Shown here in pieces: positions 22,014-36,700 of a DNA stretch of 41,379 nucleotides. Numbering within the stretch: the stretch's first letter is position 1; every line of letters begins with the position of its first letter. The notes under the pieces are model-generated. The model was not told where the DNA came from. It saw nothing but the letters and a program-made list of their open reading frames with translations, and ran no database searches. A program made the position numbers and the translations under genes. The stretch is from a virus, in the IMG/VR virus record IMGVR_UViG_3300037487_001088, positions 1-41,379 of that record; one strand, written 5' to 3'.

Positions 22014-22409
22014 TTACCTCCGGGTGATTCTGCCGGTCGACTGCCGAAGTTCACGGGATGCTGCCAGATGATCGGTTCCATCGCCGCCTTTGTTCATGTG
22101 TGCTGAACCCTCTTCTCCCATCTTCGGGGCGCTCTTCCATCCTGCAACCTTTACCGCAAATGCGAGCGGGTCTTCGGTGCTCATCTTCTGGAGATGTGCC
22201 TTGTCTGCCGGGTCTTTGATTTCGCCGTGCGGGATAACCGTCTTTTCGAGGTTCGCCCAATCAGCATCGAACTTTTCTTTCTGCATCTGTGCTTTTGCGT
22301 CCTCGTGAGCCTTGAGCACCGCGTTCGCAGTCTCAATCTCCTTATTGAGTTTCGCAACCTGATCCGATAGTTCTTTTACTTTCGGATCTTCAACAATAGG
22401 ATCTGCCAT
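22014..22409 (-). CDS. Nested scaffold protein from an internal in-frame start
   Basis: Inside the protease/scaffold gene an ATG at 22409 follows GGAG with a 7-base spacer and begins exactly at the scaffold domain (MADPIVEDPKVKEL). This gives a separate 131-residue scaffold, as with lambda Nu3 inside gene C. The internal signal is visible; use of it is inference. Confidence 0.5.
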   Translation of the reverse strand: MADPIVEDPKVKELSDQVAKLNKEIETANAVLKAHEDAKAQMQKEKFDADWANLEKTVIPHGEIKDPADKAHLQKMSTEDPLAFAVKVAGWKSAPKMGEEGSAHMNKGGDGTDHLAASRELRQSTGRITRR

Positions 22410-23573
22410 TTTGTTTCTCCGTGTGATATTTTCAATATCCTCTTTCGTCATGTTCGTAAAAACGGTGTTTGCCTGTTTTACGACGTATGCCTGTTCAACT
22501 TCGACGGGATCGCCAAAGGTCACGTTCTCCCCGGTGAGCGTATAAGGCGTTGAATAATATTGCGCGGTATCGGGGTTCTGCCAGATTACACTATCGGGGA
22601 GCGTCATTACCGTCCATACCGTGCGTTTCATTCCATCAGGATATCTCAATCCGATTTTATCGTTGAGCGCGGTCCTGATGGTCTCGATCTGTCCTTCAAG
22701 CGATTCGTTATTAGGGACTGTGATACCGGGTTCGACTACAGATATAGCGTTCTTTTTCTCATCTGCGTTCGGAGCCGGTTCACTACCCGCCCCCATCATA
22801 TCCTCAAAGAACGTCGCAATACCGTCTAATATCCCTTTCAAACGAGCGGCATTCTTACCGGACATGACCTTTCCGGCATTGATATGTGCTGCCGGTTCCT
22901 GCGATTGTAATGTCACATTCTCATTCTCCTTTTTGTTCAATACAACAGCCATGCGGTCAACCGGCTGATCGCGTTCCGTTTCCTCAAATTCCAGTATGTG
23001 ATTCGGGATTACAGTTCCGGTTAATTTCTCACCATCATCAGGGCAAATGAACGCTGATGAATGTGAGAGTTTCCCCTCTGCCAGTAATTTGAGCGCAATT
23101 GGAACAGCCGCTTGTGACTTTTTGAGTTGCTCTTCAGTGATGAGCCCCTGTCCGAACATCCGAAGCGCCGTTGCATCCGTGTAATTTTTGGTGATCATCA
23201 GTTTTGGATGACCCGTGCCTTCGATAAAAGCATCTGACGATTCACCAATAATAGCGCCGTTAATACGGTCAAGTTCAGAATCGGGGTCTTTGGTGAAATC
23301 GCGGGGTTCCGGGTGCGATTGTGCGAATACTAACGGCGTGCCATTCCATGCGTCAATTGTTGAGGAAAACGGATCAGTGCCGAAATAGAGCCTGCCAACT
23401 TTGCGGTCAAGCCCGTGAAGAATAGCGGAGTGGGATTCGGTAGCCGTTTTTGAGAGGTGGACAGTAGGACCCAGCCGGCATTTCCCGTTCGGGCATGGCG
23501 GTTTTGTCGTCTTGTGTAAGTGGACCTTTCCCCCTGCAAGATCCGATTGATAATAAGCGCGGGTTTGGGGCAT
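22014..23573 (-). CDS. Prohead protease fused to scaffold
   Basis: A 519-residue protein. Residues 60-205 look like a capsid maturation protease of the DUF2213 kind: a PLVFAQSHP segment, a D-x-x-LDRINGAIIG strand, GKLSHSSAFICPDDG with candidate Ser around 170-173, and VIPNHILEFE with His192. An insert near 300-370 (WTVMTLPDSVIWQ, STPYTLTGENVTFGDPVEVE) is typical of such head proteins. From about residue 390 a charged coiled coil (VKELSDQVAKLNKEIETANA) is the scaffold. The ATG is about 27 bases from a TATA box, so the mRNA is likely leaderless. An internal start could yield free scaffold. Confidence 0.75.
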   Translation of the reverse strand: MPQTRAYYQSDLAGGKVHLHKTTKPPCPNGKCRLGPTVHLSKTATESHSAILHGLDRKVGRLYFGTDPFSSTIDAWNGTPLVFAQSHPEPRDFTKDPDSELDRINGAIIGESSDAFIEGTGHPKLMITKNYTDATALRMFGQGLITEEQLKKSQAAVPIALKLLAEGKLSHSSAFICPDDGEKLTGTVIPNHILEFEETERDQPVDRMAVVLNKKENENVTLQSQEPAAHINAGKVMSGKNAARLKGILDGIATFFEDMMGAGSEPAPNADEKKNAISVVEPGITVPNNESLEGQIETIRTALNDKIGLRYPDGMKRTVWTVMTLPDSVIWQNPDTAQYYSTPYTLTGENVTFGDPVEVEQAYVVKQANTVFTNMTKEDIENITRRNKMADPIVEDPKVKELSDQVAKLNKEIETANAVLKAHEDAKAQMQKEKFDADWANLEKTVIPHGEIKDPADKAHLQKMSTEDPLAFAVKVAGWKSAPKMGEEGSAHMNKGGDGTDHLAASRELRQSTGRITRR

Positions 23574-29978: not shown

Positions 29979-30413
29979 TCATGATTTCACCGAACGTTTT
30001 TGCCCGGAATCCTTTTTGTCGTCTGGTATCGCCGTGTATGTGAAACAGTTATGCACGTGATTGTGCATGGCTATCATAAGGTGCTCAACGCAGCACGGCT
30101 TGCAGTGATTCCGTTTCAGTCGTATCCGCTGCCTATTGCGCTCAATGCAGATCCGTTCGATCAGGTATGAGCACGATAGGGAATCACAAAAAGCATCGAT
30201 ATACTCATCGTAAGCCGGCCATCGTTCCGGATCTGGGATATCTTCGGTGAAGTCATACCCCCTATACCGATCAATAATCTCCTTTGCTTCCGACCAGCAC
30301 CCTGCAAGGTTCAATTTTATCAGATGCTGCCCGTCTTTGCAACCCCAACGGGCAAGAGTCTTTTCTCGGATAAGAATTGATACCTGATTATCAATATCTC
30401 CTTCCATCACCAT
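29979..30413 (-). CDS. 144-residue Cys/His-rich protein
   Basis: It is encoded between terminase and portal. Its features are DAFCDSLSCSYLIERICIERN, and NHCKPCCVEHLMIAMHNHVHNC with many Cys and His, a likely zinc-binding region. An ATG at 30407 overlaps the terminase stop (TGATG) and could be the true start, two codons shorter. It might assist packaging or be a nucleic-acid-binding accessory. Function unknown. Confidence 0.6.
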   Translation of the reverse strand: MVMEGDIDNQVSILIREKTLARWGCKDGQHLIKLNLAGCWSEAKEIIDRYRGYDFTEDIPDPERWPAYDEYIDAFCDSLSCSYLIERICIERNRQRIRLKRNHCKPCCVEHLMIAMHNHVHNCFTYTAIPDDKKDSGQKRSVKS

Positions 30414-31930
30414 AACTCACCGAGCCCTTCATCCCCACCAAAGAAGGAATCATCAGCACCCATGCCGAACGCATCGCTGCCAGTACCATGCCCGATAGCC
30501 TCTTCTGATGAGGGTTCGTTAGTCGGATCTCTCAATCCTTTTGCCAGTTCATTGAATGCTCCTGATAGCGTATCGACCACATCATCATGTTTGCCGTCCG
30601 GGAATGCTTCAACCTCTGCAAAGAATAAATCGTTCCACGGAGCCCGGCGGATCTTGATCAGGCCGTTATATGCTGCTCGTGATGCCGGTACCGCACGGGC
30701 GGGTTTTGAACCGGATGATGGGATACCCATATAATCCGATCCTCTGAACTGATCGCGGGCATTGAGGAAGATAACGGTCTTCCCGCTCGCACCCCCCTCT
30801 TGCTCTTCCCGGACCTTGACCCCCGGACCGTCCTGTGATGTAATGCGTTTGCGGGCGGCTTCTGTTTCTCCTGGATTATCCCTGATCCGGTAAACGTCAA
30901 GCACGTAATAGATCCCCCCGATAGCGCACATCTTAAGCCCGGCGGTCCAGTCAGGTTCTTTGCTTTTCTTACTCTTCCGGGTTGCTGCCATATCCCAATA
31001 CCTGACCGTGACGGCTTGCTTCGGGATATCTTTGTCATCTACTACATCGAACCATTCCCGCTTAAAGACGGTTCCGGCCTGTGCTCGGATCTTCCAGTTG
31101 CCCCGTAATAATCGCTCCTGTTCAATGAATGAGAGAGCCTGAAGGTTCCCGCGATATTCCGGATTGATCTTTTCGAGGTGTGGATTATCGCTGAGTTTTG
31201 CGTGGATGAATGTTACGCTCTTCGGTTGACGGTCCGGATATCTTTTTAATAGTTCTTCTGATGAATCAGCCCATACTATTTCATCAATATCGCGGATGAA
31301 CCACCGGATAACTCCTGATCGCTCTTCTATGGGGTATCCTGTTACAGGGTTAATCCACCATGAGATAAAGCCGGTTCCCCATTCACCCTTCCCGCCATGC
31401 CCCCGTACTAACCACGAATCAGAATCCGGGTTTGCCGTTGCTCGGATTACCGGCCTGACCCCGCAGGTAGACCGATTACGGGAGAACATATAGAAAAACT
31501 GGTATTCAGTAAAATGCTCTAATTGGTCAAACCCGATATGAGCGATCTGTGCTCCGTCATATCCCTGACAGGTTTTATCATACTGAAGGTGATCGAAGTG
31601 AATCCGATTATTAAACGGTGGAAATGTCCAGTCTATTTTCGGGGATTCCCTGACTGCTCCCCCTTGTGAAGGATATATTTTCCGGCTTTCATCCAGCAAT
31701 CCCCCTTCGTTTGTTATCTGTGTAGTATCCCTACGGAATAGGACGGCTCCGAATCCCCGCACTCGTTTGATATGCCGTAAGGGATCGAGTAGCAGTTCAA
31801 AGGTTTTGCCGCCCCCCGCCTGCCCTCCGTATATGATGATATCCGCAGGTGATGATAGTGCCAATGTTTGCGGGCCCGCTTGAGGTTTAATGACCTTTTG
31901 CGGTTGCTGGGGTTGCTTTGTCTCTGCCAT
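30407..31930 (-). CDS. Terminase large subunit
   Basis: A 507-residue packaging motor with an N-terminal ATPase and a C-terminal nuclease. Walker A is GGQAGGGKT (35-43), followed by LFRRDTTQI, and the Walker B region is IAHIGFDQLEHF (129-140). Nuclease residues are D313 in RYWDMAAT, E376/E378 in REEQEGG and the HDDVVDTLSGA motif (448-458). All catalytic positions are present. The acidic C-terminal tail is Gly/Asp-rich. It overlaps the small subunit by 44 bases. Confidence 0.92.
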   Translation of the reverse strand: MAETKQPQQPQKVIKPQAGPQTLALSSPADIIIYGGQAGGGKTFELLLDPLRHIKRVRGFGAVLFRRDTTQITNEGGLLDESRKIYPSQGGAVRESPKIDWTFPPFNNRIHFDHLQYDKTCQGYDGAQIAHIGFDQLEHFTEYQFFYMFSRNRSTCGVRPVIRATANPDSDSWLVRGHGGKGEWGTGFISWWINPVTGYPIEERSGVIRWFIRDIDEIVWADSSEELLKRYPDRQPKSVTFIHAKLSDNPHLEKINPEYRGNLQALSFIEQERLLRGNWKIRAQAGTVFKREWFDVVDDKDIPKQAVTVRYWDMAATRKSKKSKEPDWTAGLKMCAIGGIYYVLDVYRIRDNPGETEAARKRITSQDGPGVKVREEQEGGASGKTVIFLNARDQFRGSDYMGIPSSGSKPARAVPASRAAYNGLIKIRRAPWNDLFFAEVEAFPDGKHDDVVDTLSGAFNELAKGLRDPTNEPSSEEAIGHGTGSDAFGMGADDSFFGGDEGLGELW

Positions 31931-32441
31931 TGTCAGGTAAGATTATGATGGTTGATTCTAATTGTTCGCCATCTCTTCCGGTGATCTCCTGCCGGTGCAC
32001 ATCTCTCCAGTCTTTCGGCTGCCTGTTCTTGAGCCAGAATATCATTGATGTGGGATCCGGTAAGACTTCCTTTTCGGTAATCTCTTTACGAACCGCTTTT
32101 ACCCGCCATTCTTTACCATCCCCGTCTATCTCGGTGCGCTCGTCACCAATCTGAATGATCTTTTTTTCGGTTATTTTATACCCACAAGCACGCTTATAGA
32201 GGCTGGTTACGACTTCCTCATCGGCGTATTCTTTGCCCTTTTTTATAGTGGACAGGAATTCGGGGTTTTCTTCCATCCAGTTCTTTAAAGTGGATAAACT
32301 GACATTAATTGCATCGGCGATCTGCTGGTTTGTCTTTCCCTGCTCTGCCAGCTCTTTTACTTGTGCCGGATGTTTATTCGGGTCAAATAGGGATTTTCGC
32401 CCCCTTTTCTTTAGTTTGTCCGACGGTTTCTTTTTGGTCAT
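31887..32441 (-). CDS. Terminase small subunit
   Basis: A 184-residue protein with an N-terminal helix-turn-helix (KELAEQGKTNQQIADAINVS, then TLKNWMEENPEF), a central oligomerisation part (YADEEVVTSLYKRACG) and the usual C-terminal SMIFWLKNRQPKDWRD segment. This is the standard small terminase that recognises the packaging site. It begins 7 bases after the Mom-like gene ends and overlaps the large subunit. Confidence 0.9.
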   Translation of the reverse strand: MTKKKPSDKLKKRGRKSLFDPNKHPAQVKELAEQGKTNQQIADAINVSLSTLKNWMEENPEFLSTIKKGKEYADEEVVTSLYKRACGYKITEKKIIQIGDERTEIDGDGKEWRVKAVRKEITEKEVLPDPTSMIFWLKNRQPKDWRDVHRQEITGRDGEQLESTIIILPDNGRDKATPATAKGH

Positions 32442-32447
32442 GAAAAA

Positions 32448-33119
32448 TTAAACCTCATGCGTTGAGATGGGAATTGAACCCTCTTCTCCAGTATGGATAA
32501 CTGGCGTACTAACGCTATGTACTACCAACGCGCTTTTGTCTGTCTTTTTAGGATAGGGTTTTCTTAATGGTTCAATCTTTGCTCTCATATCTTCAGTAAG
32601 AGGATAGAGATATTTGTATTTTGGAAGTGTTTTTCTTGATCCTTGTGCGAGATGTTTCTGATCTGAATATGCGTTTTTATCATTACGGTATTTCCCATTT
32701 ATAAGGTACTGAACCATTGAAGAGGATGTACCGATATAAACCCAATTTGATGCCTGATATATCGCGCCGATGTGATCACGTTCGGGATCGGCATAAGATA
32801 TGATTAACTTCGCATCTGGATACTTTTTGACGATAAGTTTTAAGGAGATTGATATGAGACGGGATACCGGCGTTATGTGGCTTTTTAATGCAATTCTCCT
32901 TAATTCATAACAACTAAAATTATCTAATCCGAATTGTTTTCCGATATATGGGCCAATCGAATGCCCATAAATGATTGCGCCTTTATATTCATCGTTTTCC
33001 CAAACCCCAATATTATCATTGCGTCCTGATGGCGAACAGTTTGAATAGTGCCAATGCTCACATGCAAACTTTGCAGCATCGTGTCCGACCCAATCCAGTT
33101 TAAGTAGGGGAAAACTCAT
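32448..33119 (-). CDS. mom: Mom-like DNA adenine modification enzyme
   Basis: About 223 residues. It matches the phage Mu Mom family: an EHWHYSNCSPSGRND segment, then GVWEND and GAIIYG, a CYELRRIALKSHITPVSRLI segment and ISYADPERDHIGAIYQASNW. This is a GNAT-related enzyme that modifies adenine in viral DNA and blocks restriction. The last 25-28 residues (after about residue 195) are encoded by the tRNA-like cloverleaf and do not look like Mom. The start at 33119 is an ATG; a GTG two codons earlier also exists. The ParB-like gene overlaps the 5' end. Confidence 0.85.
   Translation of the reverse strand: MSFPLLKLDWVGHDAAKFACEHWHYSNCSPSGRNDNIGVWENDEYKGAIIYGHSIGPYIGKQFGLDNFSCYELRRIALKSHITPVSRLISISLKLIVKKYPDAKLIISYADPERDHIGAIYQASNWVYIGTSSSMVQYLINGKYRNDKNAYSDQKHLAQGSRKTLPKYKYLYPLTEDMRAKIEPLRKPYPKKTDKSALVVHSVSTPVIHTGEEGSIPISTHEV
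32458..32531 (-). tRNA. tRNA-Gly(UCC)-like gene or relic, inside the 3' end of the mom-like gene
   Basis: The minus strand folds as a full cloverleaf: 7-pair acceptor GCGTTGG/TCAACGC (last pair G-U), discriminator A, 4-pair D stem GTAC/GTAC, 5-pair anticodon stem CCAGT/ACTGG, a 7-base anticodon loop with UCC at 34-36, and a T stem GAGGG/CCC(A)TC with loop TTCAATT. Faults: base 33 is A instead of the universal U, the T stem has a bulged A and the D loop lacks a GG pair. It may be a decayed tRNA, a tRNA-like structure, or an integration relic. Confidence 0.6.
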
Positions 33120-33642
33120 GTCCACATTCCGGGCAAACTACCTTTTTTCTCTCATCTAATCGCGGTACTTGATCTTCTGGTATTGGGTTGAATTGTGGGT
33201 TTGCTTCCTGTAACATCCTCTTAAATTCATCGTCGTCAAATCCTGTTATGGATATGTCAAACCCCTCGGCTTTCAGTTCGCCCAACAAATCGGTTAAGCG
33301 CTGCGTGTCCCACTCTCCGCCAATGCGATTTAATGCGATGTTTGCAGCGTGTTCCTCTGATGGGGTAAGTTCTTTCAGTTCCATATCAGAGAACGCCCAT
33401 GAGTAAGCGCCTAACTGGATTGTATGCAGTTCTTTTGTTCCCTCCGCAACCAGAACTTTAAGGCGTTGGTGTCCTCCGAGTATCTTTTTTGTTTTTGTAT
33501 TGAAGATGATCGGATCTAAAAACCCGAATTTCTTAATTGATCCTTTTATCTTTTCATACTCAGGATCACCGGGTTTTAAATCTTTCCGGGGGTTCTTTGG
33601 TTCTGGTAATAGTTTTGATATGAGTATGGTTTCAGTTTGCAT
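33100..33642 (-). CDS. ParB-like domain protein with C-terminal zinc motif
   Basis: A 180-residue protein. Residues 5-95 carry the ParB/sulfiredoxin-like signature: KLLPEPKNPRKDL, KKFGFLDPIIFNTKT, ILGGHQRLKVLVAEG. This is a nuclease/NTPase-like fold used as a DNA-modification partner in phages. The C-terminus adds KVVCPECGHEFSPT, a half zinc-knuckle. The gene is coupled by TAATG to the Cys-rich gene upstream and overlaps the Mom-like gene, supporting a joint role in viral DNA modification. Role is inferred from the family and neighbours. Confidence 0.8.
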   Translation of the reverse strand: MQTETILISKLLPEPKNPRKDLKPGDPEYEKIKGSIKKFGFLDPIIFNTKTKKILGGHQRLKVLVAEGTKELHTIQLGAYSWAFSDMELKELTPSEEHAANIALNRIGGEWDTQRLTDLLGELKAEGFDISITGFDDDEFKRMLQEANPQFNPIPEDQVPRLDERKKVVCPECGHEFSPT

Positions 33643-33770
33643 TATGTCCAGTCCCGCGTCCCTAAAATTCCGTAACTGCTTACATACTTCTCGCAGGTGT
33701 CCTCGTTCTTTCTCTTATATTCGCTTGGACAAAGTTGTTGATATTTACACGATTTGCACTTCGTTGTCAT
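33642..33770 (-). CDS. 42-residue Cys-rich protein
   Basis: It carries CKSCKYQQLC then DTCEKY, a four-Cys set. The start has little ribosome-binding sequence, but the stop is coupled by one base to the ParB-like gene. It may be a zinc-bearing partner of the modification module (inference). Confidence 0.5.
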   Translation of the reverse strand: MTTKCKSCKYQQLCPSEYKRKNEDTCEKYVSSYGILGTRDWT

Positions 33771-34058: not shown

Positions 34059-34709
34059 TTAATAAAGTTTCTCGTAGTCCGGCCATTTCCCGGTTGTGCG
34101 GATGGCTTCGAGACATGCAACTGATATGACTTTCCAGACGACAACTCCTGAACCAAGCCATTCCTTCCAGAGATAGTGCTTCCCACCAGTGACTATGCCG
34201 AACTCTACGAGATATTCCCACGGGCCTGAGTTGATGTCATAACGATACGTCTTAGCAGCTTCTGCTTCATCGACTGCTGCCAGAACCAATACCTGCATCT
34301 TTGCGGGGCGGTCTGATATCAGCCACTTGCGGGTCTCTGCGTTCATCTTGTTAAGCGGGTCAATCGTGGTTACTTTGTAAAACTCCGTAACTGTGAGCCG
34401 GGCTTTAATAAACGGGATGACGACATTTTCCCACGCATACAGGATGAATGTGAACAGTGACAGGTATGCCAGCCATACTCCATCAAATAATGAGGAGAAA
34501 CTTGAGAGATTGTTGAGATTGACAACTCCCGTAAATGCCATGATGAATCCGAGGATCACTGAGTAGATCGCGGTTGGTGCGAACTTCAGCCAGTCCCATG
34601 ATTCGCCGGTATCCTGTGCTTTCTTTGCGTATCGGATCAGTCCGAATACAAATGCCATTATGATCGAGATGATGATCAATTTTGTCAATTCTAAAGTGAG
34701 TTCTACCAT
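34059..34709 (-). CDS. Holin-like membrane protein
   Basis: A 216-residue protein with three hydrophobic helices, about residues 8-27, 44-64 and 75-96 (IIISIIMAFVFGLI, IYSVILGFIMAFTG, LAYLSLFTFILYAW), and a soluble C-terminal 110 residues. The size, short N-terminus and location just after the C1 peptidase and homing endonuclease suggest a holin. The long soluble tail is unusual for a simple holin and may face the cytosol. No known family is recognised. Confidence 0.55.
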   Translation of the reverse strand: MVELTLELTKLIIISIIMAFVFGLIRYAKKAQDTGESWDWLKFAPTAIYSVILGFIMAFTGVVNLNNLSSFSSLFDGVWLAYLSLFTFILYAWENVVIPFIKARLTVTEFYKVTTIDPLNKMNAETRKWLISDRPAKMQVLVLAAVDEAEAAKTYRYDINSGPWEYLVEFGIVTGGKHYLWKEWLGSGVVVWKVISVACLEAIRTTGKWPDYEKLY

Positions 34710-34713
34710 TGAA

Positions 34714-35361
34714 TTACACTTCCTTTGTTACGTAACATTTCCCATCATACTTTTCAGTAATCATCGAGGTGAAATGTTGCTCCCAATATGGGCGATTACG
34801 GTTTGTTTTCATGTGACAACTGCGACACAATGGAACAAACAAGGGAATAGTATTGTCACAACAACTTTGCTTGTTGAAATTTACGTGATGGATTGATAGT
34901 TTCTCTCCGTTTTGAGGTATGCCGCACTCGACACACCGATGCCCGAAGAATGTCCGGACCCGCTCTTTAAATTCGTTAGTGAACTTGGGGCAATATGGTT
35001 CAAACGAGATCCCCCCTTTCCAATTTGCGTTTTTCTCCCCTCGGATTTTGTCTATTACTTCTTTTGGGCGAGGGATGCCACGACGGGAAGATCCTATTTT
35101 TTCGCGCGTTTCTGGTAAAACTACATGCCCGATGTGACCTTTAGAGATATTCTCCTTGTGGGATTCTGAAAACACCCGGCCTTTGTGTCCAGCACTATTT
35201 TTCTTACACCGCTCTTCAGAGTGTTTCTCTCCAGTGTGTGCAAGACTCATCCTTTTGCGCGTTTCTTCTGTTGGATGGTGCCCCGTTAGTTTGCCTTTAC
35301 AAGCGACGGATATCCTACACTTTGTCTCCTCTGTGTGTTTGAAACCTGCGGGGCGGGGCAT
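34714..35361 (-). CDS. Free-standing homing endonuclease (NUMOD3 repeats + HNH)
   Basis: A 215-residue protein. Residues 8-115 contain about four NUMOD3-type DNA-binding repeats (H-T/P-E-E-T-x-x-(R/K)-(R/K)-(I/M)-S style text, such as HHPTEETRKRMSLAHTG). The C-terminal HNH nuclease includes HRCVECG, LSIHHVNFNKQS and CRSCHMKTN. Such mobile genes cleave near their own insertion site. Here it separates peptidase and holin-like genes with gaps of 4 bases, as if inserted between them. Confidence 0.85.
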   Translation of the reverse strand: MPRPAGFKHTEETKCRISVACKGKLTGHHPTEETRKRMSLAHTGEKHSEERCKKNSAGHKGRVFSESHKENISKGHIGHVVLPETREKIGSSRRGIPRPKEVIDKIRGEKNANWKGGISFEPYCPKFTNEFKERVRTFFGHRCVECGIPQNGEKLSIHHVNFNKQSCCDNTIPLFVPLCRSCHMKTNRNRPYWEQHFTSMITEKYDGKCYVTKEV

Positions 35362-35365
35362 ATTT

Positions 35366-36514
35366 TTACCTCTTAAACAGGTGGACTAACCACCCTATCA
35401 GAATTTGAAACCAGTTCCGGGCCGGTGCCGGGTCGGGTATGGGCTCAAGCACCAATACGAGTTCCCTAACATTTTCATCAACCGTGGCGATCTGTGCATA
35501 GTACCCCGGAGCCGTGGCGTTGATCGTGTATCTCTGCCCTTTCTCCAGCGCGATGGTTTGGGGGGCGTATCCGATGTTAACGCCGTTGACTGCGAGCATG
35601 GCGGGGACATTGGTTGTGATTGATAACGACGTATAAATCTCTCTCCCGATCTTAACATCTGCATCGTCAATAATTACCAGTCCGACGATCTGATCGATAA
35701 GTGCATGGAAGTATTGCCACGTCATGCCCCCGTAAGGATTGCAGTATTTCCCCCATGAGTGGAATAGTTTGATCCCCCTGGACGAGTACCCATAAGCGAG
35801 AATGGCATGAAAACCATCGTTCTCATCTACCTGTTCAAACCAGCCGTCACCCCCCTCCATCTGCGTGAAAGATTTACATACGGGAATTGCGAGGATTGCG
35901 AACCCTTTGGTGAATATGGCCTGTTTAATATCATCTTCTGTCATATTCCCGCCGATTGCACCATTCCCAATCATTGCCCAGCCGGTGCATTTATGGAGCG
36001 GTGCGAAGGTTGTTTCGAGTTCTGGATTTGGATTGTTGACAATTACAAATCTTCCTGTTTTATCGGTGAACCAATCCCGCTCTAATATCATCCCGCGTTT
36101 ATTCCATGCCCGAGCACAGAATTTTATATCTCCTCCGCTCGGATAGGTAATATTGCCCTCTTCTCTGCCGATGGTATAGAACCACTGATTAGAGGCTGAA
36201 TCATCGAATAAGATATCATGGATGGTCCCGGTTGGTTCGATAACATCCATCTTATACGCTGCCATCTCTTCTGCGGTTGGCATATCCTCCGGGCAGAGCA
36301 TCAGGTGAAGTAAATCATAGGCTGATGCTGTCGCAAATCCGGTACATGTTCCCCTGAATCCCTGATCCTTGAGAGCAACTTTCTTAATAAGGGGATTTTC
36401 CCATTCGTCAGGAACAACGACGGATTCAAGCGGGGATTTTGCCATCTGGATTCTGGATAATTGCCAATCGTGAGAGGTTCCGATTGGTTTTTGATCTAAA
36501 ACTGGAACTACCAT
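35366..36514 (-). CDS. C1 (papain-like) peptidase with C-terminal PEGA-like domain
   Basis: A 382-residue protein. The catalytic core has Gln51 and Cys57 in KDQGFRGTCTGFA, the same six-residue spacing as the papain oxyanion Gln and nucleophile, and His236 in GFHAILAYGYS. The usual Asn is replaced by His252 in LFHSWGKYCNPYGG. A beta domain at about 291-357 (SLSITTNVPAMLAVNGVNI, LEKGQRYTINATAPGY) fits PEGA. The end is amphipathic (NWFQILIGWLVHLFKR). There is no signal peptide. It probably cuts the archaeal S-layer or another surface protein at lysis or entry. The mRNA is likely leaderless. Confidence 0.78.
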   Translation of the reverse strand: MVVPVLDQKPIGTSHDWQLSRIQMAKSPLESVVVPDEWENPLIKKVALKDQGFRGTCTGFATASAYDLLHLMLCPEDMPTAEEMAAYKMDVIEPTGTIHDILFDDSASNQWFYTIGREEGNITYPSGGDIKFCARAWNKRGMILERDWFTDKTGRFVIVNNPNPELETTFAPLHKCTGWAMIGNGAIGGNMTEDDIKQAIFTKGFAILAIPVCKSFTQMEGGDGWFEQVDENDGFHAILAYGYSSRGIKLFHSWGKYCNPYGGMTWQYFHALIDQIVGLVIIDDADVKIGREIYTSLSITTNVPAMLAVNGVNIGYAPQTIALEKGQRYTINATAPGYYAQIATVDENVRELVLVLEPIPDPAPARNWFQILIGWLVHLFKR

Positions 36515-36574
36515 TTAGATATTGTTTATGGCGAAAAATATATAAATACCTATCGTAAAACATTTAATCAATAT
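36515..36574. promoter_or_regulatory. Shared divergent promoter
   Basis: Only one strong TATA-like stretch (ATATATAAATA, 36538-36548) lies between divergent ATGs at 36514 and 36575. Each ATG is about 27-32 bases from it. Read in both directions, it can serve both genes, and both mRNAs would be nearly leaderless. The region is very AT-rich. Confidence 0.55.
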
Positions 36575-36700
36575 ATGAAAAATAAAATATTGAGAGTGGT
36601 TAAAAAGGCGAAAGAGCGGGTTAAGCAGGCTACTCTCTCGCATTTCCCTGATGACCCCGGGTTAAGACGGCACGCCAGAATGTGTCCCTGCATCAGATAA
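36575..36700 (+). CDS. 41-residue basic protein on the opposite strand
   Basis: A short plus-strand frame with Lys/Arg-rich helix (KNKILRVVKKAKERVKQATL) and an ending with RMCPCIR. It has its own TATA box and near-leaderless start. Its end overlaps the possible minus-strand gene at 36662. It may be a small DNA- or RNA-binding peptide controlling the lysis gene next door (inference). Confidence 0.45.
   Translation: MKNKILRVVKKAKERVKQATLSHFPDDPGLRRHARMCPCIR

Follow-up and report, generated by a model that had tools for sequence, protein, structure and literature searches.

Analysis of a virus record from IMG/VR (41.4 kb; this whole stretch of DNA is referred to below as the window) revealed a gene pair encoding a papain-like peptidase and a holin-like membrane protein, which probably serves a tailed archaeal virus as its exit (lysis) module, i.e., a holin together with an S-layer protease. 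To our knowledge, no exit system of a holin and an S-layer protease has been demonstrated in S-layer-only archaea, and the conserved gene pair offers a concrete, testable candidate for the exit of tailed viruses from such cells. An earlier note on this DNA had proposed an archaeal lysis module at the same place; what could be established is a two-gene module conserved before the packaging genes, as seen in the related contig L186, with lysis as its candidate role, judged from sequence.

The locus comprises three minus-strand genes with gaps of 4 nt between them. Since the flanking stretches of about 415 bp contain only small ORFs, we consider the trio a discrete unit. The peptidase and membrane protein ORFs were found at the positions given in the earlier note; the second gene does not directly follow the first, however, as a gene for an HNH/NUMOD3 endonuclease that had been missed lies between them. 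The features of the locus and its context genes are listed below.

30407-31930, minus strand: large terminase, a context gene; 50% identical to that of Blf4
31887-32441, minus strand: small-terminase-like protein, a context gene
33100-33642, minus strand: ParB-like protein, at which the packaging-side block begins (PF02195, 0.0032, under the cut-off)
34059-34709, minus strand: holin-like membrane protein of 216 aa, with three predicted N-terminal membrane helices and a C-terminal domain
34714-35361, minus strand: HNH homing endonuclease with NUMOD3 motifs (PF07460, 6.7e-11; phrog_8446, 4.4e-10)
35366-36514, minus strand: papain-like cysteine peptidase of 382 aa, with a PEGA domain and a C-terminal amphipathic tail
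35369-35413, minus strand: C-terminal amphipathic helix NWFQILIGWLVHLFKR of the peptidase (helix at aa 368-381 in the model)
35471-35629, minus strand: PEGA domain of the peptidase (PF08308, borderline)
35759-35761, minus strand: codon of His252 (CAC), at the position of the papain catalytic Asn by alignment
35807-35809, minus strand: codon of the catalytic His236, invariant in 30/30 sequences and present in L186
36344-36346, minus strand: codon for Cys57, predicted to be the nucleophile (motif KDQGFRGTCTGFA), invariant in 30/30 sequences and present in L186
36539-36546, minus strand: archaeal-type TATA box TTTATATA, lying 25-32 nt before the ATG of the peptidase gene
36568-36693, minus strand: conserved small ORF of 41 aa, hydrophobic at its C-terminus, immediately ahead of the peptidase promoter

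The peptidase matched phrog_16701, a family named "peptidase", with an E value of 2.7e-5, and no PF00112 match was obtained at E ≤ 0.1 in the protein scan or in a six-frame search. An AlphaFold model, computed with a 30-sequence alignment, placed a papain domain at aa 30-284, with pLDDT mostly 80-96 in this block and lower values in the loops around aa 80-110, 150-160, and 180-190; the PEGA region was not modelled, since the alignment had no depth there. Foldseek returned 233 PDB matches to this peptidase at E ≤ 0.001, headed by xylellain (E 6.5e-12) and followed by cathepsins and papain, and its viral matches included phage C1 peptidases and one protein named as peptidoglycan-binding. Xylellain (PDB 3ois), a papain-like protease of Xylella with 19-20% identity to the window protein, is a cellular bacterial enzyme, unlike the viral peptidase studied here, and we know of no holin-like membrane partner for it.

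When the peptidase was aligned with other viral papain-like peptidases, Gln51, Cys57, and His236 were invariant in all 30 sequences, and the oxyanion-hole Gln, the Cys, and the His are also kept in the L186 peptidase. Model, structural matches, and conserved residues together bear out the papain-like fold claimed earlier. Absent from that account was the altered position of the catalytic Asn, which is occupied by His252 in the window and by Gly in L186, with Asn in 29 of the 29 other aligned viral peptidases. Because Cys-His-His triads and Cys-His dyads are known within papain-like families (PMC10318531), this replacement is not proof of inactivity; given the altered residue, its activity could be low or lost altogether.

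The PEGA-like domain of the earlier description was recovered at borderline strength, as PF08308 scored 22.9 bits in a six-frame search and 19.4 bits in the protein scan, above and below the cut-off of 20.8 bits, respectively; the domain in the L186 peptidase scored 19.6 bits. Agreement extended to the amphipathic C-terminal end, which forms the model helix listed above with a hydrophobic moment of 0.43-0.44, and to the signal peptide, none being apparent on inspection of the sequence. Profile searches found no domain of the endolysin-type wall-hydrolase families in the peptidase, and a search of the window for the C71 pseudomurein endoisopeptidase was negative, in line with the reported absence of a pseudomurein hydrolase. 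By these profile matches, the peptidase stands outside the endolysin families, and the pair would represent only atypical members of the holin and papain families. Elsewhere among the viral papain-like peptidases, those at L138:4565-5443 (minus strand) and L183:1038-1964 end in a C-terminal hydrophobic segment, and that at L128:1177-2079 (minus strand) ends in a basic, possibly amphipathic stretch; by such sequences, C-terminal membrane anchoring may be recurrent in this group.

Structure prediction of both proteins, a check that the earlier note had suggested, was mostly confident for the papain domain and gave a low-confidence model for the membrane protein, with helices at aa 3-34, 38-62, and 68-108. 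The prediction agrees with the three helices described before, and the membrane protein is alone among the window ORFs in having three hydrophobic segments at its N-terminus; what had been overlooked is a further domain of about 105 aa at the C-terminus, after the N-terminal half (~aa 1-110). Residues 13-60 matched the holin family phrog_785 with an E value of 5.3e-5, and the match to the Pfam LydA holin was weak (0.031, below the cut-off). As a control, residues were permuted inside each helix and loop; nine such helix-preserving shuffles and the reverse of the protein gave no holin match at E ≤ 0.1, which argues that the phrog_785 match exceeds what hydrophobic composition yields. No holin match was obtained among ten further neighbor membrane proteins, and the N-termini of the window, L186, L003, and L123 membrane proteins had no detectable homology to one another. 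At 216 aa, the window protein is larger than the typical holin of about 60-150 aa, and its charge pattern is predicted to fit an N-out, C-in topology that would place the C-terminal domain in the cytoplasm, a point that we counted against a function in lysis. A protein encoded upstream of the packaging genes in L003 (346-1101) also begins with three hydrophobic segments, followed by a soluble C-terminal region, and its similarity to the membrane protein of the window is weak (pairwise E 0.042).

Searches with the peptidase or the membrane protein alone against viral contigs, phages, plasmids, and genome contigs returned no usable relative, and L186 was reached solely via the alignment of diverse viral papain-like peptidases. 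Its peptidase is 30% identical to that of the window over aa 51-382, PEGA domain and tail included (E about 1e-31), and is immediately followed by a membrane protein and then by a ParB-methyltransferase and TerS, so that both the order and the slot before the packaging genes are as in the window, whose ParB-like gene is homologous to the L186 ParB-methyltransferase gene. The contig is a true relative, given that its tail module is collinear with that of the window and most genes in it are 38-67% identical. The L186 membrane protein has N-terminal hydrophobic segments, two of them clear and a third weak, with no holin match, and a PF00801 search identified in it a PKD domain, which is of surface type. 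Near-identical amphipathic tails end both L186 proteins (KKTWLQLLIEWIAALFRRK and KKSWLELLIAWILGIFGK) and the window peptidase (ARNWFQILIGWLVHLFKR); the tail of the L186 membrane protein matches that contig's own peptidase at 3.1e-5, and among 191 loci the motif occurred in these three proteins only. The L186 peptidase also carries an N-terminal extension (approximately L186:7674-7850), winged-helix-like by inspection, that the window peptidase lacks.

In the window, profile searches detected both HNH and NUMOD3 motifs in the product of the intervening gene. No HNH gene separates the peptidase and membrane protein genes in L186, and an HNH gene whose product is 54% identical lies elsewhere in that contig, between tail genes; from this sequence comparison, the most fitting reading of the window HNH gene is a mobile insertion, an intruder in a conserved unit of peptidase and membrane protein. 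No such peptidase was found in L002, L003, L004, or the Methanoculleus virus Blf4, which are closer to the window by TerL and some of whose records are perhaps fragments, and searches of the relatives for C71, papain Pfam families, and PKD_4 were negative or matched other genes. A different two-gene set is conserved before the packaging genes in L002 (5202-5897 and 6043-6804) and L004 (1183-1830 and 1988-2647); the second of its proteins has a hydrophobic segment at the C-terminal end, and the set is possibly an alternative exit module.

The peptidase gene is preceded by a perfect TATA box of archaeal type, the best-scoring site at such spacing upstream of 50 gene starts; L186 has the block TATTTATATATTT without a change, about 100 nt before the ATG. 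Since the count of the 8-mer across the whole window was not above chance, only its position and conservation carry weight. There is no Shine-Dalgarno sequence at the peptidase ATG, which points to a start that is probably leaderless. The small ORF just upstream is homologous to a 44-aa ORF that has the same location and likewise a hydrophobic C-terminus in L186 (7421-7555), with 69.6% identity over 23 aa by tblastn (E 7.7e-5), and of the 10 substitutions in the conserved block, 7 affect the third base of a codon; its product is possibly an accessory membrane peptide and a third component of the module.

Among named viruses, Blf4 has the TerL closest to that of the window (50% identity), and bacterial terminases score comparably, at about 46-53% among the other matches, so that TerL alone is insufficient to assign a host. 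The window TerL is 68-81% identical to those of four IMG/VR contigs, with collinear head genes. L002 encodes an archaeal-type PCNA (PDB match at 1.7e-30), to which the PCNA of L186 is 51% identical. On the combination of the Blf4-like TerL, the PCNA of these two relatives, and the archaeal TATA box, the sequences identify the virus as one that infects an archaeon, probably a methanogen; of the earlier proposal of a methanogen virus whose host has a protein envelope, it is the archaeal virus that these data uphold. Gene order relative to L186, with an antirepressor before the early genes, suggests that the genome is nearly complete and circularly permuted. The gene concerned, P22_AR_N antirepressor-like, lies at 908-1735 on the minus strand of the window and has a homologue at L186:2603-3298; its position suggests circular permutation.

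We propose the following course of events. The product of the gene at 34059-34709 would build up in the cytoplasmic membrane and then open it in the manner of a holin, whereupon the peptidase, synthesized without a signal peptide, would gain access to the cell surface. There, its PEGA domain and amphipathic tail would retain it at the membrane or the S-layer, and degradation of the S-layer protein, the sole wall, would cause the cell to burst. That the peptidase is proteolytic and has the S-layer as its substrate, that the membrane protein forms holes, and that both act late is what we infer, and on this evidence the candidate module would work like a holin-endolysin pair in which a protease replaces the wall hydrolase. 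We favor lysis because of the papain fold with its conserved Q-C-H residues, the phrog_785 match with negative shuffles, the pair order and slot before ParB/TerS kept in L186, the amphipathic tail at the end of both L186 proteins with a surface-type PKD domain in one of them, and the module's own TATA box, conserved in L186. The lysis genes of phage lambda are likewise located just upstream of the terminase, and the similar placement of the window locus was counted in favor as well.

Further support comes from a few bacterial viruses in which papain-like peptidases lie beside endolysins or are fused to them. Scans with degenerate DNA gave 36 clusters of viral papain-like peptidases, and neighboring genes were scanned at 35 IMG/VR loci. 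The wall hydrolases among these neighbors were Amidase_2 (twice), Amidase_3, GH108, Rv2525c-like, and M15, the L116 amidase, a third gene, being added to the tally by hand; the other neighbors included DNA polymerases and portals. With roughly two wall-hydrolase loci expected by chance, an estimate that assumes about 60 genes per contig, the enrichment is weak, concerns a minority of the 35 loci, and is not clearly above chance. Clear lysis cassettes with a papain-like peptidase are individual cases: the peptidase adjoins an endolysin in Thermoanaerobacterium phage THSA-485A and in L116, L123 has a set of holin, GH108 endolysin, and peptidase, and the 753-aa endolysin of Alicyclobacillus phage MMB025 combines papain, Ig-like, glycoside hydrolase, and peptidoglycan-binding domains. 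Shaeky and FLC9 are counter-examples with a papain-like peptidase outside a lysis setting, and because other viral members of the family are located elsewhere, membership alone is no proof of a role in lysis. That wall hydrolases occur near only a minority of the 35 loci was counted against the lysis reading, as were the replacement of the catalytic Asn by His or Gly, the L186 membrane protein with its lack of a holin match and its dissimilar N-terminus, and the closer TerL relatives in which no such peptidase was seen.

The chief rival, which we consider unlikely, is that both proteins act on the inner side of the membrane. There, a papain-like protein anchored by its tail, whether active or inactive, would join its membrane partner in cleaving or blocking host membrane proteins for superinfection exclusion, host takeover, or counter-defense, and neither would have a part in release. 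A peptidase without a signal peptide and with its catalytic Asn lost would suit such a role, the tail common to both L186 proteins would tether them to the same membrane face, and the closest relatives by TerL lack the genes, a distribution common among accessory genes. However, PEGA and PKD domains are of surface type and would be hard to explain in an intracellular role, the membrane protein is similar to a holin family, and no other lysis candidate was found in this apparently near-complete genome.

Less likely still are two roles in the virion cycle. The peptidase is improbable as an entry enzyme of the virion that cuts the S-layer from outside at DNA injection, with an unrelated membrane protein beside it: the S-layer must be crossed at entry too and the PEGA domain would suit a surface role, but the gene belongs to neither the head nor the tail module and forms a separate transcription unit with that of the membrane protein, the order of the pair is conserved in L186, and the tail genes include their own Prophage_tail tip protein. 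As for a prohead protease that processes capsid proteins, a viral peptidase near packaging genes invites the comparison, and one head maturation protease occurred among the surveyed neighbors of viral papain-like peptidases; this we regard as very improbable, since a separate gene at 22014-23573 in the head module, conserved in close relatives, has a weak head-maturation-protease match, and relatives that share the head module are without the papain-like gene.

Read as a lysis module, the pair resembles the lambda S-R and LydA superfamily III cassettes in having a holin-similar protein with three predicted helices beside a signal-less enzyme of lytic type before the terminase; unlike in holin-endolysin cassettes, the enzyme is papain-like instead of a wall hydrolase, and the putatively hole-forming membrane protein is 216 aa long and has an additional domain at its C-terminus. 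The papain-PEGA arrangement recalls the MMB025 fusion of papain, Ig-like, glycoside hydrolase, and peptidoglycan-binding domains. THSA-485A, MMB025, L116, and L123, however, also have a peptidoglycan hydrolase, whereas no wall hydrolase was found in the window, and the L116 and L123 peptidases keep the catalytic Asn, a residue replaced by His in the window and by Gly in L186. Among methanogen viruses, PeiW and PeiP of the psiM viruses are C71 cysteine peptidases for host lysis (PMC4592898), which differ from the present enzyme in that C71 was not found in the window or its relatives and that the target here would be protein. Infection of Methanosarcina mazei by MetSV induces a host cysteine proteinase, MM_RS01165, which is up at 180 min, is membrane-associated, and has been proposed to act in lysis of the methanogen (PMC9694453); unlike the virus-encoded window peptidase it is a host gene, and the likeness drawn here is one of description.

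Exit by a holin plus an S-layer protease was hypothesized for archaeal viruses by a 2015 review, which pointed out that isolated archaeal viruses had so far yielded no holin gene and that no S-layer-degrading enzyme was known (PMC4456609); the arrangement of the candidate pair matches this hypothesis, which we counted in favor of lysis. According to a survey published in 2025 (PMC12596118), only 10.9% of archaeal dsDNA viruses were found to have lytic proteins. When the text of the paper on the Blf4 genome (PMC8540584) was searched for the words holin, endolysin, and protease, none was mentioned. More broadly, and tentatively, the pair may exemplify a protease-based lysis of S-layer-only archaea, in which a holin-like protein would work with a papain-fold protease whose active site is altered to a Cys-His-His triad or a Cys-His dyad, and the tag shared in L186 would gather both at one membrane site.

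Several further features were observed on the packaging side of the locus. A Mom-family DNA modification gene in this archaeal virus lies at 32448-33125 on the minus strand (PF25680, 7.6e-38). ARAGORN predicted a tRNA-Gly(UCC) at 32458-32531 on the minus strand, within the 3' end of this mom-like ORF and immediately before the small terminase gene, and the predicted tRNA folds better than shuffled sequences (z -3.06). Beside the start of parB is a cysteine-rich, zinc-ribbon-like mini ORF of ~42 aa, at ~33645-33770 on the minus strand of the window and at L186:11423-11617.
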